NCBI RefSeq assembly: GCF_003797945.1
Contig: NZ_RKKU01000014.1
Coordinates: forward strand, 1-64,000
From: Pseudomonas neustonica
GTDB taxonomy: Bacteria > Pseudomonadota > Gammaproteobacteria > Pseudomonadales > Pseudomonadaceae
DNA: 64,000 nt
Direction of reading: 5' to 3'
Within the stretch, counting starts at the first letter, position 1. Every line of letters begins with the position of its first letter. The position numbers and the translations under genes were made by a program. The notes beneath the pieces are model-generated. The model was not told the DNA's origin, ran no database searches, and worked only from the letters and a program-made list of their open reading frames with translations. Shown one piece after another: positions 2,590-13,325 of this stretch.

Positions 2590-3627
2590 CTACTCGACGG
2601 GCTGTGGCAGGTCTTCCTGCTCCTGCGGCAGCACCGCTAGAAAGTTATCCCGCGCTACCTTATGGGCAACATCCTCCGGCAAGGCATCAAGAAACACATC
2701 AAAGCCATGCATGTACTTGCTGACACTATCAAAGTGCCCTACTACGTCGGACCCCAACATAAAGCGATCGGGATAATCCTCGACCAACTGCACCCACTCC
2801 GGATTGGGATTACCCTCGCTATCAACCAGGTAGGGCTCGCGCACGGTCCAGGATAAATCGATATACAGGTTGGGATAAGCCTTGAGCATGCGCTGCAGCG
2901 TAGGCAGCAGGAACTCCAACTTGGTCTGGTGGCGATGGACTTCCATACTGGTCCCGGCATGCGCCCAAATAAAGCGCACTCGCGGGTGATTGCGCAGTGG
3001 TTCTTCTATTTCCTGCAGATAGAGCGGGTTGCGCTCACGCTGGGAGGTAATATTGCTGTGCACCATCACCGGCAGATCGTATTCCGCAGCCAGCGTATAG
3101 ACCCGATCCATAGCGTCGCTATTGGCCCGCGGTGGTTCGCCATGAATCAGTGCCGTCAGATCATCGTGTCGGGTGAAGACTTCACCAATGCCCTGCCAGA
3201 GCCCCGGATAAAGCGCCAACATACGCCGAATGTGGGCGTCGGAGTTTTTATCGTTTGGATTGAAACCTGACAGAAACGGATGGAACCGACTTTTTTGCTC
3301 GGTTGGCAAGTTTTGGTAGGCGTCGGCCACCAACAGGTCAGTGGCGCTAAACCAGTAGGCGCTGCCATCATCGCCAGCATAATAGCGCGGACGCTTGGGC
3401 TCGTTCTCACTCCACTTTTTAGCAACCGGAATACCAGAGAGCATCACGTGCTCCACGCCGCTTTCATCCATTTTGTCCAGCAACGCCTGCATACCTTCGG
3501 TTTCCTGGAAGAAATCGACGTAATGCAGGTGCGCGTCAGAGTAAACGTAATCGCGCGCGAGCAGCGGCATGGAAAGACAGCATGCCAGCAAACCGCAGGT
3601 AATACGTGAAGGGATCGATAAGATCAA
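2590..3627 (-). CDS. Exported amidohydrolase-family protein
   Basis: A TIM-barrel metal-dependent hydrolase of the amidohydrolase_2 type (PF04909), 345 residues. The N-terminus is a signal peptide (hydrophobic to about Ala24, likely cleaved before Arg25). An earlier LLAC sequence at 13-16 leaves a lipoprotein as a weak alternative. The first metal site is visible as DAHLHYVD (His33, His35), with later histidines in VMVHSN and FIWAHAG and an aspartate in LGSDVVGH. The start is TTG at 3627, chosen because AAAGGAG lies seven bases upstream and no ATG precedes the signal peptide. The reaction and substrate are not predictable; relatives hydrolyse lactones, esters or decarboxylate ring acids. The TetR gene lies 61 bp upstream on the same strand, and regulation by it is possible. 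Confidence 0.8.
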   Translation of the reverse strand: MILSIPSRITCGLLACCLSMPLLARDYVYSDAHLHYVDFFQETEGMQALLDKMDESGVEHVMLSGIPVAKKWSENEPKRPRYYAGDDGSAYWFSATDLLVADAYQNLPTEQKSRFHPFLSGFNPNDKNSDAHIRRMLALYPGLWQGIGEVFTRHDDLTALIHGEPPRANSDAMDRVYTLAAEYDLPVMVHSNITSQRERNPLYLQEIEEPLRNHPRVRFIWAHAGTSMEVHRHQTKLEFLLPTLQRMLKAYPNLYIDLSWTVREPYLVDSEGNPNPEWVQLVEDYPDRFMLGSDVVGHFDSVSKYMHGFDVFLDALPEDVAHKVARDNFLAVLPQEQEDLPQPVE

Positions 3628-4607: not shown

Positions 4608-5774
4608 ATGACAACACCCTATGACTGGCAACACGAATTCCCGCTTGATCCTGACATCTGCTACCTGAACCATGCCGCAGTCGCTCCCTGGCCAAAGCGC
4701 GCAGCCGACGCCGTCAGCCGCTTCGCTCAGGAAAACGCGCGTCAGGGCGCACGCGACTATCCGCGCTGGGCCAAACAGGAAACACACCTGCGCCAACAGC
4801 TAAAGCAGCTGGTCAATGCGCCCTCTGTGGATGACATAGCGCTGGTCAAGAACACCTCGGAGGCGCTTTCCTTCGTTGCGCAAGGCATTAACTGGCAAGC
4901 CGGCGACGAGATAATCACCAGTGATCAGGAGTTTCCTTCCAACCGCATTCCCTGGGAGGCTTTGAGTTCACGCGGCGTTAACGTGCGTCAGATATCACTG
5001 CAGGGTGACGATCCCGAGCAGGCGCTCATCGATGCTATGAATGAGAATACGCGACTGCTGACGATCAGCTCGGTGCAATACGCCAGCGGCTTGCGGATGG
5101 ACCTGAAGCGGCTGGGCGCCGCCTGCCGCACCCGAAAAATACTGTTTTGCGTGGATGCTATTCAAACCATCGGCGCCCTGCCCTTTGATGTGCAAAGCAT
5201 AGACTGTGACTTTGCCATGGCAGACGGCCACAAGTGGCTGCTGGGCCCTGAAGGCCTGGGCGTTTTTTATTGCCGAGAATCCGTTCGCGACCAGTTGCAG
5301 CTGACCCAGCACGGTTGGCATATGGTCGAGGCCATGGGTAACTACGATCTAAAGCAATGGCAGCCCGCCAGCTCGGCGCGGCGTTTTGAGGCGGGTAGTC
5401 CAAACACCCTCGCTCAGCACGCGCTGTCAGCAAGCCTTGAACTGCTGCTGGACACAGGAATGGACAGGGTCGGCGCACTGCTCCAGCAGCGCGTGGCCTA
5501 TCTGATAACGGCCCTTCAGCAGACTCCCGGCGTTCGCCTGCTCAGTCCAGAAGCACCCGAGCGGCGTGCAGGGATAGTGACCTTTGCCATTGAGGGTGTT
5601 GATCACCCGCGCTTGCACCGCGAACTGATGCAATCGGGGATCATTTGCGCCCAGCGTGGCGGCGGGATTCGCTGGTCACCCCACTTTTACACGACCGAAG
5701 ACACCCTGGATCAAGCCGTGAGCCAACTGCAATTGCTAATCAGCCAACAAGGGGATAACAGCGGTTCACGATAA
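4608..5774 (+). CDS. Class-V aminotransferase-fold PLP enzyme (cysteine-desulfurase-like)
   Basis: 388 residues of fold-type I, class V (PF00266). The PLP-binding lysine is Lys209 in the motif DGHKWLLGPEG. The upstream aspartate/glutamine motif FCVDAIQTIG and the N-terminal YLNHAAVAPWP are typical. Near the C-terminus, IICAQRGGGIRWSPHF resembles the segment that carries the catalytic cysteine in SufS/CsdA-type enzymes. Whether it is a true desulfurase, an isopenicillin-N epimerase-like enzyme or an aminotransferase cannot be decided from sequence. The start ATG has AGGAGG seven bases upstream. It stands alone, without Fe-S assembly genes nearby, which argues against a dedicated isc/suf role. 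The RgsA-like RNA and its terminator follow. Confidence 0.82.
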   Translation: MTTPYDWQHEFPLDPDICYLNHAAVAPWPKRAADAVSRFAQENARQGARDYPRWAKQETHLRQQLKQLVNAPSVDDIALVKNTSEALSFVAQGINWQAGDEIITSDQEFPSNRIPWEALSSRGVNVRQISLQGDDPEQALIDAMNENTRLLTISSVQYASGLRMDLKRLGAACRTRKILFCVDAIQTIGALPFDVQSIDCDFAMADGHKWLLGPEGLGVFYCRESVRDQLQLTQHGWHMVEAMGNYDLKQWQPASSARRFEAGSPNTLAQHALSASLELLLDTGMDRVGALLQQRVAYLITALQQTPGVRLLSPEAPERRAGIVTFAIEGVDHPRLHRELMQSGIICAQRGGGIRWSPHFYTTEDTLDQAVSQLQLLISQQGDNSGSR

Positions 5775-5844
5775 AGCGGGGCGTACGTATTCCAAATCAG
5801 TTTATAAAAAAACGAGGGGATACTGGAAAGCCGGGGGATTTAAA

Positions 5845-5854
5845 CAATACTCAA
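5845..5854 (+). promoter_or_regulatory. Possible sigma-S -10 element for the RgsA-like RNA
   Basis: CAATACTCAA matches the extended sigma-S -10 consensus CTATACTTAA at eight of ten positions and has no good -35, as is common for RpoS promoters. A start about 6-8 bases downstream would give an RNA of about 112-115 nt ending at the terminator, close to the about 120 nt I recall for RgsA of P. aeruginosa, which is RpoS dependent. Confidence 0.4.
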
Positions 5855-5857
5855 ACT

Positions 5858-5971
5858 ATCAGATACGGCATTCCCCCAAGTGCCTGTCTGAGCTGACAGG
5901 TTAGCTCCTGTCTCAGTATCACTCCTAATGGTCTTAACCCGAATTCTTCCCCCAGAATTCGGGTTTTTTTT
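5858..5971 (+). ncRNA. rgsA: RgsA (P16)-like small regulatory RNA
   Basis: The region between the PLP enzyme gene and convergent tatD holds no ORF but is strongly structured and ends in a textbook terminator. In P. aeruginosa the Hfq-binding, RpoS-controlled RNA RgsA (PA2958.1, also called P16) lies next to tatD (PA2959). The location, size and sigma-S-like promoter all fit. Two hairpins compete: CCTGTC (5883-5888) with GACAGG (5895-5900), or that GACAGG with the second CCTGTC (5907-5912). The unpaired stretch 5913-5937 contains TCACTCCTA, complementary to the acpP ribosome binding site in this window. An alternative longer transcript from the TATAAA at 5803 would fold GATACTG (5819-5825) onto CAGTATC (5914-5920). 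Identity rests on synteny from memory; no covariance search was possible. Confidence 0.62.
5938..5971 (+). terminator. Rho-independent terminator of the RgsA-like RNA
   Basis: A perfect 9-bp stem (CCCGAATTC, 5938-5946, with GAATTCGGG, 5955-5963), an eight-base loop and eight T residues. It works only in the plus direction, so it ends the small RNA and any read-through from the PLP enzyme gene, not tatD. Confidence 0.92.
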
Positions 5972-6008
5972 ATGCTTTGGAAGCAACAAGTCCCTGAGAG
6001 GAGTACTT

Positions 6009-6788
6009 TTAGACAGTAGTGAGCGGAAACAGACGATGAAAGTTATCGCCCGTTTGCTGCCACAGCGTATCGACAGACACCCCGCGCAGCTCAGCCAAAA
6101 AAGCAGCCACTTCACAAACGAACTGAGGCTCATTTGGCTTGCCACGATGCGGAATCGGCGCCAGATAAGGCGAGTCGGTTTCGACCAGCAGACGGTCGGC
6201 TGGCACCTGTCGAGCCACGTCGCGCAAGGCTTCCGCATTACGGAAGGTCACAATGCCCGACAACGAAATGTAGTAACCCATATCCAGGGCCGCACGGGCC
6301 ATGTCCCAATCTTCAGTAAAACAGTGCAATACGCCGGCATTCGGCAGATCGGCTTCACGCAAGAGGGTCAGCGTATCCGCACGGGCAGCGCGGGTATGAA
6401 TGACAACGGGCTTACCCGTAACCTTCGCCGCCTGCAGATGGACGGCAAACGACGCCTGCTGTTGCTCGGCCAACTCAGGCTCATAGTGGTAGTCCAACCC
6501 AGTCTCACCAATGGCCACGGTACGCGGATGGTCCAGCGCGGTCAGCAACCAGTCAAGATCGGTTTGGGTGCTGTCTTTTAGATCCAGCGGGTGCACACCC
6601 ACACTGCAGAACACATCCGCATGCTGATCTGCCAGCGCCTGGACTACAGGCGCGTTGGTTGCATCCACGCCAATGCACAGGAACTTGCGTACGCCACGCG
6701 TGCGGGCGGCGTCCAGCGCAGCTTCGAGCGAGCCGTTATAGGGTGTGAGATCGAGTCGGTCTAGATGGCAATGCGAGTCAATGAGCAT
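6009..6788 (-). CDS. tatD: TatD-family metal-dependent deoxyribonuclease/hydrolase
   Basis: 259 residues, the normal length for the family (PF01026). The TIM-barrel metal ligands begin with DSHCHLDRL at residues 4-12. GETGLDYHY, PVVIHTRAA, GVLHCFTED and VETDSPYLAP follow in the usual order. TatD-type proteins hydrolyse DNA 3' ends or D-aminoacyl-like substrates in the cytoplasm; the exact role of this paralogue (the YcfH type beside holB/tmk) is not settled. It starts 3 bp after the stop of pilZ and is the last gene of the holB-pilZ-tatD string. This order is conserved in pseudomonads. Confidence 0.93.
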   Translation of the reverse strand: MLIDSHCHLDRLDLTPYNGSLEAALDAARTRGVRKFLCIGVDATNAPVVQALADQHADVFCSVGVHPLDLKDSTQTDLDWLLTALDHPRTVAIGETGLDYHYEPELAEQQQASFAVHLQAAKVTGKPVVIHTRAARADTLTLLREADLPNAGVLHCFTEDWDMARAALDMGYYISLSGIVTFRNAEALRDVARQVPADRLLVETDSPYLAPIPHRGKPNEPQFVCEVAAFLAELRGVSVDTLWQQTGDNFHRLFPLTTV

Positions 6789-10728: not shown

Positions 10729-11966
10729 TCGCAGCGGCGAAAGACCAGACTTCCGTTGGTACCACCAAAGCCAAACGAATTGGATAGCGTGACATTGAGA
10801 GGCCGCTGTTGCGCACTATGCGCAACGTAGTCGAGATCACAGCCCTCATCCGGGTTATCAAGGTTAATCGTCGGAGGAGCAACCTGATCACGCAACGCCA
10901 GCACGCTGAAAACCGCCTCAACCGCGCCGGCTGCGCCTAACAGGTGGCCCGTCATCGACTTGGTCGAACTGATAGCCAGCTTGTAGGCGTGTTCGCCAAA
11001 CACGCTTTTTACTGCACGTGTCTCAGCTAAGTCGCCCGCAGAGGTAGAGGTGCCATGCGCATTGATGTAGTCAACCTCATCGGGATTGATGCCGGCATCC
11101 TTCAACGCATTAGCCATGCACTTGGCGCCACCGCGACCGTCTTCTGGCGGTGCCGTCATATGGTACGCGTCGCCACTCATGCCAAACCCAACCAGCTCGG
11201 CATAGATATTGGCGCCACGCGCCTTCGCGTGCTCGTACTCTTCGAGCACCATGGCACCGGCACCATCAGACAGGACAAAGCCGTCACGCTCGCGATCCCA
11301 GGGGCGGCTGGCCGCTTGCGGATCATCATTACGGGTCGTCATGGCGCGCGCAGCACTAAAGCCGCCCAAGCCAAGTCCACTGGTGGCCATTTCCGAACCA
11401 CCCGCCACCATCATATCGGCCTCGCCATAGGCAATGTTACGCGCCGCCATGCCGATGCTGTGTGTGCCAGTGGTGCAGGCGGTCGTCATCGCATAGTTGG
11501 GCCCTTGCAGACCATATTGGATGGACAGATAGCCGGCAACCATATTGATGATCGACCCCGGCACAAAGAAAGGAGATATGCGGCGAGGACCACTATTGAG
11601 CAATTGCTCACAGTTCTTCTCGATATTGGTGAGACCACCGATACCAGAGCCCATGACCACACCAATACGATCCCGGTTCTCATCGGTAATCTCTATACCG
11701 GAGTCCTTGATCGATTGCGCACAGGCTGCCAAGCCGTACTGAATGAACAGGTCAAGCTTGCGCGCTTCTTTCGCCGCCATATAAAGCTCGACGTCAAAAT
11801 CACGTATGGATCCGCCAATGCGCGTATTAAAAGCACTGACATCCATATGCTCAATAGTGGCAATCCCACTCTTGCCTGCCAAGGCGGCCTGCCAGCTGCT
11901 TTCAACCGTATTGCCCAACGGCGACAACATACCCAGACCGGTTACCACGACGCGTCTGCGCGACAC
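10725..11966 (-). CDS. fabF: 3-oxoacyl-[acyl-carrier-protein] synthase II
   Basis: 413 residues from GTG 11966, equal to E. coli FabF. It condenses malonyl-ACP with medium and long acyl-ACP, including the palmitoleate-to-vaccenate step. The active-site cysteine is in [12 protein letters not shown] near residue 163; the two catalytic histidines lie in [11 protein letters not shown] and [14 protein letters not shown]. The GTG is preferred over upstream starts because AAGGAG lies six bases before it and the product then begins [11 protein letters not shown], as in the family. Downstream of acpP with a terminator-like hairpin between them, so it should be expressed at a fraction of acpP. Confidence 0.95.
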
Positions 11967-12104
11967 AGCGAACTCCTTATTCAACTCTCTATAGCAACGA
12001 GCAAGGGCAACCCCCTGCCGCGAACCTGCCATATTGTCGGTGCAAACGCGCCGAGCAGCAAGAAGCTAAGCTAAAGGCTGCGTATCACCATAATTCGGAC
12101 ATAC

Positions 12105-12143
12105 AAAAAAGCCGCAGATACTTGAGAGCACTGCGGCTTTTTT
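12105..12143 (-). terminator. Terminator/attenuator between acpP and fabF
   Basis: A 7-bp GC-rich stem (GCCGCAG 12111-12117 with CTGCGGC 12131-12137) flanked by six A and six T residues, so it is symmetric. On the minus strand it follows acpP and precedes fabF, where partial termination would explain why far more acpP than fabF mRNA is usually made. Confidence 0.85.
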
Positions 12144-12166
12144 CGACCTTTCGGCAGACTTCGTGA

Positions 12167-12403
12167 TTACTTCTGGTTCGAGTTCACGTAGTTGATTGCT
12201 TCCTGGACGGTGGTGATCTTCTCGGCTTCTTCATCCGGAATCTCAGTCTCGAATTCTTCTTCGAGAGCCATAACCAGCTCCACGGTGTCCAGGGAATCAG
12301 CGCCAAGATCTTCAACAAAAGAAGCGCTGTTGGTCACTTCTTCTTCTTTGACGCCGAGCTGTTCGGCTACGATTTTCTTGACGCGTTCTTCAATGGTACT
12401 CAT
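12167..12403 (-). CDS. acpP: Acyl carrier protein
   Basis: 78 residues, highly acidic and helical. The phosphopantetheine arm attaches to Ser37 in the motif [16 protein letters not shown]. It carries all intermediates of fatty acid synthesis and supplies acyl groups for lipid A and phospholipids in the cytoplasm. The ATG has GGAGTGAG upstream with a spacing on the long side. A separate promoter sits in the 178-bp gap after fabG. The leader segment UAGGAGUGA (minus strand of 12413-12421) is complementary to the RgsA-like RNA at 5919-5927. Confidence 0.98.
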
Positions 12404-12410
12404 ACCTTGT

Positions 12411-12421
12411 TCTCACTCCTA
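12411..12421 (-). promoter_or_regulatory. acpP ribosome binding site, predicted pairing site for the RgsA-like RNA
   Basis: The acpP mRNA reads UAGGAGUGA here, which includes the Shine-Dalgarno core. The RgsA-like RNA contains UCACUCCUA at 5919-5927, a perfect 9-bp complement, extendable by two pairs past one bulged base. I recall acpP as a reported RgsA target in P. aeruginosa. Five of the nine bases are simply anti-Shine-Dalgarno, so specificity rests on the flanks. Confidence 0.5.
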
Positions 12422-12453
12422 TGTGCAGTTCCGAGAAGCCGGACTGCGGGTAG

Positions 12454-12481
12454 TTTATAGAAACAAATCGCTTGGTTTCAA
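12454..12481 (-). promoter_or_regulatory. Predicted sigma70 promoter of acpP
   Basis: On the minus strand TTGAAA (12481-12476) and TATAAA (12459-12454) are separated by 16 bp. The start point would fall about 45 bases before the acpP ATG, leaving the ribosome binding site well inside a short leader. Confidence 0.55.
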
Positions 12482-12581
12482 GCGTCAATCGCTTCTATCG
12501 TAACGGGTGCCAAGCCTTTGGAGCCTGTACCCAGCAAAAAATCATGCAAAAACATCATTGTAGCTCAGGTAAAAAAACACC

Positions 12582-13325
12582 TCAGCTCATGTACATACCG
12601 CCATTGACCGGCAAAGTTGCCCCGGTAATGTAGCCAGCAGACTCACTGGCAAGAAACCCTACAGCAGCAGCAATTTCCTCGGCCTGACCCAAACGGCCTA
12701 GCGGAATCTGCTCCAGCATCACGTCACGCTGGGTGTCATTAAGCGCACGCGTCATGTCTGTGTCAATAAAACCCGGTGCTACCGCGTTCACAGTAATGGC
12801 ACGCGAGCCCACTTCTCGTGCCAGCGCACGGGTGAAACCTTCCATGCCAGCCTTGGCTGCAGCATAGTTGGATTGACCAGCATTACCCATACCACCCACC
12901 ACAGAACTGATGTTGATGATACGCCCCCAACGGCCCTTGGTCATGCCTCGCAGCACTGCCTTGGACAAACGGTAAACCGACCCGAGGTTGGTGTTGAGCA
13001 CATCATCCCATTCGTTCTCTTTCATGCGCATCAACAGATTATCGGCGGTGATGCCAGCATTATTGACCAGAATCGCCGGCGCACCGTAGGTCTCGGTAAT
13101 GGCTGAAAGCACAGCTGCTACTGAGTCGGCATCGCGCACATCAAGCTTCATACCGGTACCCTTGTAGCCCGCCTCGGCGAGCTTGTCGGCAATCGCCTGC
13201 GCGCCCTGATCACTGGTAGCAGTGCCAACGACAATCGCGCCCTGGGCGGCGAGAGCATGGGCGATCGCCTGACCAATACCACGACTTGCACCGGTAACCA
13301 GCGCAACTTTTCCTTCAAGACTCAT
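12582..13325 (-). CDS. fabG: 3-oxoacyl-[acyl-carrier-protein] reductase
   Basis: 247 residues, short-chain dehydrogenase. It reduces 3-oxoacyl-ACP with NADPH in each elongation cycle. The cofactor motif GASRGIGQAIA lies near residue 12, NNAGITADN in the middle, and the catalytic Ser-Tyr-Lys set in INISSVVG and YAAAKAGMEGF. The C-terminus ATLPVNGGMYMS is characteristic of FabG. ATG with AAGGAA upstream. Part of the fabD-fabG-acpP-fabF series. Confidence 0.97.
   Translation of the reverse strand: MSLEGKVALVTGASRGIGQAIAHALAAQGAIVVGTATSDQGAQAIADKLAEAGYKGTGMKLDVRDADSVAAVLSAITETYGAPAILVNNAGITADNLLMRMKENEWDDVLNTNLGSVYRLSKAVLRGMTKGRWGRIINISSVVGGMGNAGQSNYAAAKAGMEGFTRALAREVGSRAITVNAVAPGFIDTDMTRALNDTQRDVMLEQIPLGRLGQAEEIAAAVGFLASESAGYITGATLPVNGGMYMS

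Follow-up and report, generated by a model that had tools for sequence, protein, structure and literature searches.

The 64,000-nucleotide stretch of Pseudomonas neustonica DNA analyzed here, hereafter the window, carries an ordinary yet real and well-preserved gene for the small RNA RgsA, and a published target of that RNA, acpP, is reachable within the same window. It is very probable that an RNA of about 114 nucleotides would be transcribed from an RpoS-type promoter and would fold into two hairpins followed by a linker, mostly single-stranded, and then a terminator; together with Hfq, the linker (5918-5935) would pair with the acpP ribosome-binding region, lowering acpP translation in stationary phase. 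Because repression of acpP by RgsA has already been published for P. aeruginosa, the RNA, its target and its mechanism are known. What is new is the range of RgsA across the order, the distinction drawn between leader conservation and regulation, and a natural form of the RNA that has no core.

Identity and layout of the RNA gene

Features of the locus, in window coordinates:
5787..5804, plus strand: conserved upstream regulating sequence (URS), GTATTCCAAATCAGTTTA, inside the Rfam match
5822..5827, plus strand: ACTGGA, probable -35 (a tentative assignment), 17 nt before the -10
5845..5851, plus strand: CAATACT, RpoS-type -10, read from the sequence
5858..5971, plus strand: RgsA small RNA, from the RF00628 match, fold z-score and covariation in 25 genus sequences; start placed from the -10
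5859..5891, plus strand: 5' hairpin with C-rich loop, in MFE and centroid folds; 8 of 13 pairs changed on both sides
5892..5917, plus strand: second hairpin, in MFE and centroid folds; 7 of 9 pairs changed on both sides
5918..5935, plus strand: linker, mostly single-stranded, with the core ACTCCTAATGGTC (5921-5933)
5936..5971, plus strand: intrinsic terminator with loop TTCCCCCA, from the fold, a terminator scan and covariation
6009..6788, minus strand: tatD homologue from the ORF list, converging on the RNA gene
12167..12403, minus strand: acyl carrier protein gene (78 aa), from the ORF list and orthologues in relatives, which we take to be acpP from its own sequence and its position between fabF and fabG
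12413..12421, minus strand: acpP leader site TAGGAGTGA, exact complement of 5919-5927

A covariance-model search matched positions 5773-5962 to Rfam family RF00628 (RgsA) at 117.4 bits (E 1e-26), against a gathering score of 88.4. The alignment spans model positions 1-194 of 194, and RF00628 is the sole Rfam family above threshold within the 64-kb window. An earlier sequence-only reading had proposed RgsA for 5858-5971, and the search bears this out. The model begins upstream of the transcript; PMC3709562 speaks of 87 extra nucleotides carrying the promoter. The predicted length of 114 nt is taken from the -10 and the terminator, RgsA being an RNA of about 120 nt. Two mechanically called open reading frames overlap the RNA (5840-6238, minus strand; 5928-6581, plus strand) and traverse tatD in other frames.

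RgsA was described in 2008 with RpoS control, indirect GacA control, a URS and tatD as its conserved downstream neighbor (PMC2375449). The window's RNA resembles this RgsA, or P16, in sequence, URS, RpoS-type -10 and terminator, and in its place before tatD, where the sequence-only reading had also put it. It departs from the RF00628 consensus in being about 5 nt shorter from start to core, as counted from alignment gaps, and several consensus-hairpin pairs are non-standard in it, the genus having covarying hairpins of its own.

The -10 that had been called sigma-S-like reads CAATACT, and at least 90% of the sequences in an alignment of 49 share its ATACT; CTGGA recurs at the place of the probable -35 in many homologues. 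The URS has a single genome match at up to two mismatches (backward control, 1), and its presence upstream of the RNA together with an RpoS-type -10 is the arrangement that marks RgsA. In some homologues outside the family, for example L179 and L186, a diverged form of the URS is visible by eye. The rgsA promoter is RpoS-dependent according to PMC2375449 and PMC3709562, the latter dealing with RpoS control in P. syringae and also treating the interaction with Hfq.

The predicted fold is unusually stable, at a minimum free energy of -42.8 kcal/mol (z -6.68; none of 200 shuffles equally stable). Competing hairpins had been proposed, but MFE and centroid agree on a single fold—two hairpins, linker and terminator—that covaries in the genus. 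Across 25 of the 27 genus sequences (L115 and L118 omitted), 85.9% of cells pair, compared with at most 50.4% for slid structures, and 72 cells have changed on both sides versus 27.7 in shuffles. The terminator is as earlier described, a 12-bp stem followed by a T-run (one found, against a shuffle mean of 0.5). So is the unpaired segment TCACTCCTA (5919-5927), which is mostly single-stranded in the predicted fold: the window's own linker has merely a two-pair stem, and the unpaired probability of the linker core averages 0.70 in the 25 genus sequences and 0.58 in 34 from across the order, where it goes as low as 0.12. In the alignment of those 34, which like the 49-sequence alignment excludes five degenerate cases (L121-L125), the core and terminator are best conserved, with core columns invariant or nearly so, and both hairpins have diverged; the order-wide consensus structure has only 9 pairs because the hairpins are too diverged for alignment.

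Both flanking hairpins (5859-5891 and 5936-5965 in the window) have C-rich loops. CCCC stands in the first loop and CCC in the last loop in 25 of 25 genus folds, and in 30 and 28 of the 34 order-wide folds, respectively. These loops are a possible second pairing site or protein site.

Complementarity to the acpP leader

Read directly, TCACTCCTA in the linker complements TAGGAGTGA in the acpP leader without a mismatch, which confirms the RNA and the complementarity that the sequence-only reading had observed. The extension it described past a bulge can be followed by eye as ATG:CAT beyond a bulged A. It took the site to include the Shine-Dalgarno core, but the AGGAG of the leader lies 12 nt before the ATG, which is long for such a core. 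In the 4.33-Mb genome, TAGGAGTGA followed by ATG after 3 to 11 bases occurs once, at acpP (backward control, 0), and AGGAGTGA lies 2-12 bases before an ATG 11 times (control, 2).

How highly acpP ranks among candidate targets depends on the scoring. When site and opening cost were optimized jointly, acpP took rank 3 of 386 own-genome leaders, where 20 shuffled linkers gave ranks of 40-369, and to this extent it is among the best-ranked targets, as had been predicted. Under other scorings it came out at rank 8 (the 19-nt linker alone, opening cost ignored; 1 of 100 shuffled linkers ranked it better), rank 38 (opening cost added to a fixed duplex; 6 of 100 shuffles equal), rank 68 (a longer segment) and rank 193 (the RNA in full). 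The leaders ranked in all cases were sampled from the window plus 20 stretches of the genome, each of 20 kb, which together make up about 11% of it; their starts were set by rule, and some are probably wrong. Two leaders outscore acpP slightly in the joint scoring, those of a CreA-like lipoprotein gene (leader AGGGAGTGATAATG) and a HerA-like gene, at 2759-3226 and 11578-13059 on the minus strand of L351. Over 73 loci, which include the window and exclude L121-L125, the latter being without CTCCTAA, acpP paired best among the 6 to 9 leaders of its tatD-fabG block in 62, came second in 8 and third in 3, with a mean pairing energy of -16.7 kcal/mol versus -7.3 to -10.9 for other leaders.

The interpretation of this RNA as RgsA with acpP as a target is supported. 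Three papers (PMC8395346, PMC9308961, PMC5686131) report repression of acpP by RgsA in P. aeruginosa, and attribute to Lu 2016 that RgsA represses acpP and fis with Hfq by base pairing; fis repression also appears in PMC5395579. Both repressions require RgsA nt 71-77, according to PMC9308961. Through the gaps of the Rfam consensus alignment, those nucleotides would correspond to about 5923-5929, inside the core. The same paper gives a second required site, 141-175 in its own numbering, and we count it against the preferred explanation. RgsA is also among the sRNAs studied by comparative target prediction in PMC7154689, and PMC6215814 states that no evidence was obtained for RgsA-rpoS pairing. 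By analogy with P. aeruginosa, P. fluorescens and P. syringae, RpoS control, a role of Hfq, and repression of acpP and fis would be expected here as well, and the link from stationary phase to fatty-acid synthesis, which likewise comes from the literature, may be expected with them.

As in P. aeruginosa, the acpP leader here is complementary to the conserved linker region. The fis leader assigned in the window's genome, by contrast, has no AGGAGT (by eye, unscored). Nor was AGGAGTGA seen in the fis leaders of 30 genomes, again by eye and unscored, with a simple start rule that sets some starts clearly wrong. The fis leaders of G128 (L334, GGAGAGGGGGTGG) and G030 (L336, GGAGAAGGGGTGG) are G-rich, to a greater degree than the leader assigned to fis in the genome of the window, and for them the C-rich loops could be the pairing partner in place of the core.

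Leader conservation and regulation

The 9-mer pattern was matched in 53 of 59 family genomes, with the acpP leader, recognized by its text, among the matches in 45. At least nine of those 45 genomes have no RgsA match. In four genomes with no RgsA match (G012, G029, G013 and G019) the acpP leader nevertheless keeps TAGGAGTGAAAAC / TAGGAGTGAAAACAAGG, and the absence of RgsA was repeated in a second search for G012, G013 and G019. At up to two substitutions, the core was absent beside tatD in all 11 stretches from no-match genomes; of the two near-matches in those stretches, one (L366) was an acpP leader read in complement and the other (L368) a site across tatD. Covariation between RNA and leader was likewise absent over the 73 loci, where own pairs averaged -16.65 and swapped pairs -16.61 kcal/mol, and with own and swapped energies equal, covariation of the pairing was rejected. 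Relatives without RgsA keep the same leader and the pairing does not covary; leader conservation is therefore not evidence of regulation, and we rejected it as such.

RgsA across the order

RgsA matches at E ≤ 0.001 came from 221 of the 248 genomes of the family, representing 14 of its 19 genera, and from 30 of the 115 order genomes. Twenty-six of these 30 lie outside the family, 2 of the 26 above the Rfam cut-off. The best 16 of the 26, which span 10 families and include several close relatives of one another, carry the core ACTCCTAATGGTC, 13 exactly and 3 with one change. In a named collection, 91 stretches contain an exact 21-mer that surrounds the core; the query includes the core, and these stretches are therefore uninformative on core invariance. 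Among the 80 of the 91 listed are many from Halieaceae and Endozoicomonas, as well as Zooshikella, Cellvibrionales, Atopomonas and others. Of the 80, 73 have ATACT upstream, 79 a downstream T-run and 9 a site that resembles the URS at up to 4 mismatches.

A class-wide search with our own model, R1, whose E-values are rough, matched 4 of 369 genomes: two of the family, G281 from the order and G527 from outside it. The G281 and G527 matches proved to have no core when read. The search thus found no RNA with the core outside the order in the 369 genomes, under strict filters that may lose weak matches. Our survey of the literature covered RF00628 and RgsA in Marinobacter and in marine groups, and showed no report of an order-wide range among the papers listed. 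With RNAs that share its linker occurring outside Pseudomonas, RgsA probably predates the range that has been described.

Competing explanations

That the stretch might not be a functional RNA, its resemblance and complementarity having arisen by chance, is extremely improbable in view of the 117.4-bit match to RF00628, the covariation in the genus and the retained promoter and terminator. A less extreme proposal concerns the spacing of RNA and acpP, which is 6.5 kb as claimed by the sequence-only reading: the closeness could be functional, either because pairing takes place locally, close to where transcription occurs, or because regulator and target are inherited together. It draws on acpP being found about 6.1-8.1 kb away from the RNA gene in 76 of the 80 stretches from the family, hand-picked from RgsA-positive genomes so as to be spread over genera and hence non-random (L036, L118 and L141 have neither acpP nor tatD, and L123 has no acpP), and on acpP sharing a contig with RgsA, at a distance of less than 14 kb, in 10 of the 23 genomes from beyond the family (RNA and core read in 7; G343, G293 and G322 by coordinates only). 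However, RgsA keeps its core where acpP lies elsewhere, in G153, G074 and G026 within the family, and where the two genes are 55-270 kb apart, in G280, G264, G292 and G248 outside it. Among the 80 listed stretches with the 21-mer (up to 8 kb each), just 17 contain acpP and 1 contains tatD, and tatD and acpP are neighbors even without RgsA, in 11 of 11 no-match stretches. The 6.5-kb spacing looks like conserved gene order; a functional meaning was rejected, as the RgsA core persists where that order is lost, and we regard it as improbable.

More serious is the suggestion that the RNA is a true RgsA and that its linker acts as an anti-Shine-Dalgarno seed of general use, acpP being one ordinary target whose fit stems partly from the conservation of its leader for translation. 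The best 16 homologues outside the family retain the core, while of 21 acpP leaders in distant match genomes all have AGGAG and only 13 have AGGAGT; in no-match genomes the counts are 5 of 9 and 3 of 9. Pairing of core and acpP leader, computed with one consensus core for all genomes, came to -13.6 kcal/mol in the 21 match genomes versus -12.6 in the 9 no-match genomes (p = 0.06, uncorrected for kinship), and the 16S tail, as a control, gave no difference between the two sets. For these comparisons acpP was sought in 23 of the 26 outside-family match genomes, giving 21 leaders, and in 11 no-match genomes, giving 9. The retention of the acpP leader without RgsA and the higher scores of the HerA-like and CreA-like leaders point the same way. 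Against a general seed stand the sole 9-mer site in the genome, at acpP, the standing of acpP as the one gene with the site in most sampled family genomes (45 of 59), and its published status as a target. We consider a general seed a real possibility, though clearly short of probable, and one compatible with the preferred explanation of an RgsA that pairs with acpP.

What holds the core constant

Distant acpP leaders pair barely better with the core than those of no-match genomes, and acpP alone therefore can hardly be the reason for 13 nearly fixed bases across the order; targets of the core other than acpP are likely. Forms of RgsA without the core also occur. In two g5 genomes, G059 (L121) and G005 (L122), the URS and -10 are kept and the core ACTCCTAATGG is absent from the first 560 bases, while the acpP leader still has TAGGAGTGA; the other g5 stretches L105, L106 and L110 keep the core. 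By eye, L121 and L122 also retain the C-loop hairpin. In genus g15, L124 and L125 (G124 and G201) hold a degenerate RgsA in which CATTCCTGATGG replaces the core, and their acpP leader, TAGGAGTTAAAAC, is still pairable by eye with one G-U pair.

A tentative account, which we rate as not quite probable, would make RgsA an ancient order-wide sRNA, present in Halieaceae, Endozoicomonas, Zooshikella, Cellvibrionales and others, with its near-invariant 13-nt core held by one or a few ancestral targets other than acpP. The match to acpP would have been gained or sharpened in the window's family, and part of g5 would have lost the core and kept promoter and URS.

Implications

The analysis places a stress sRNA in a new genome with a published target in reach, and identifies the part of it that is evolutionarily fixed. 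The near-invariant seed, set against a changing acpP leader, yields a testable question, namely which mRNA holds the seed unchanged. The core-less RgsA of the two g5 genomes offers a ready comparison and, were the tentative account of an ancestral target true, g5 would represent a natural separation of control region and seed.
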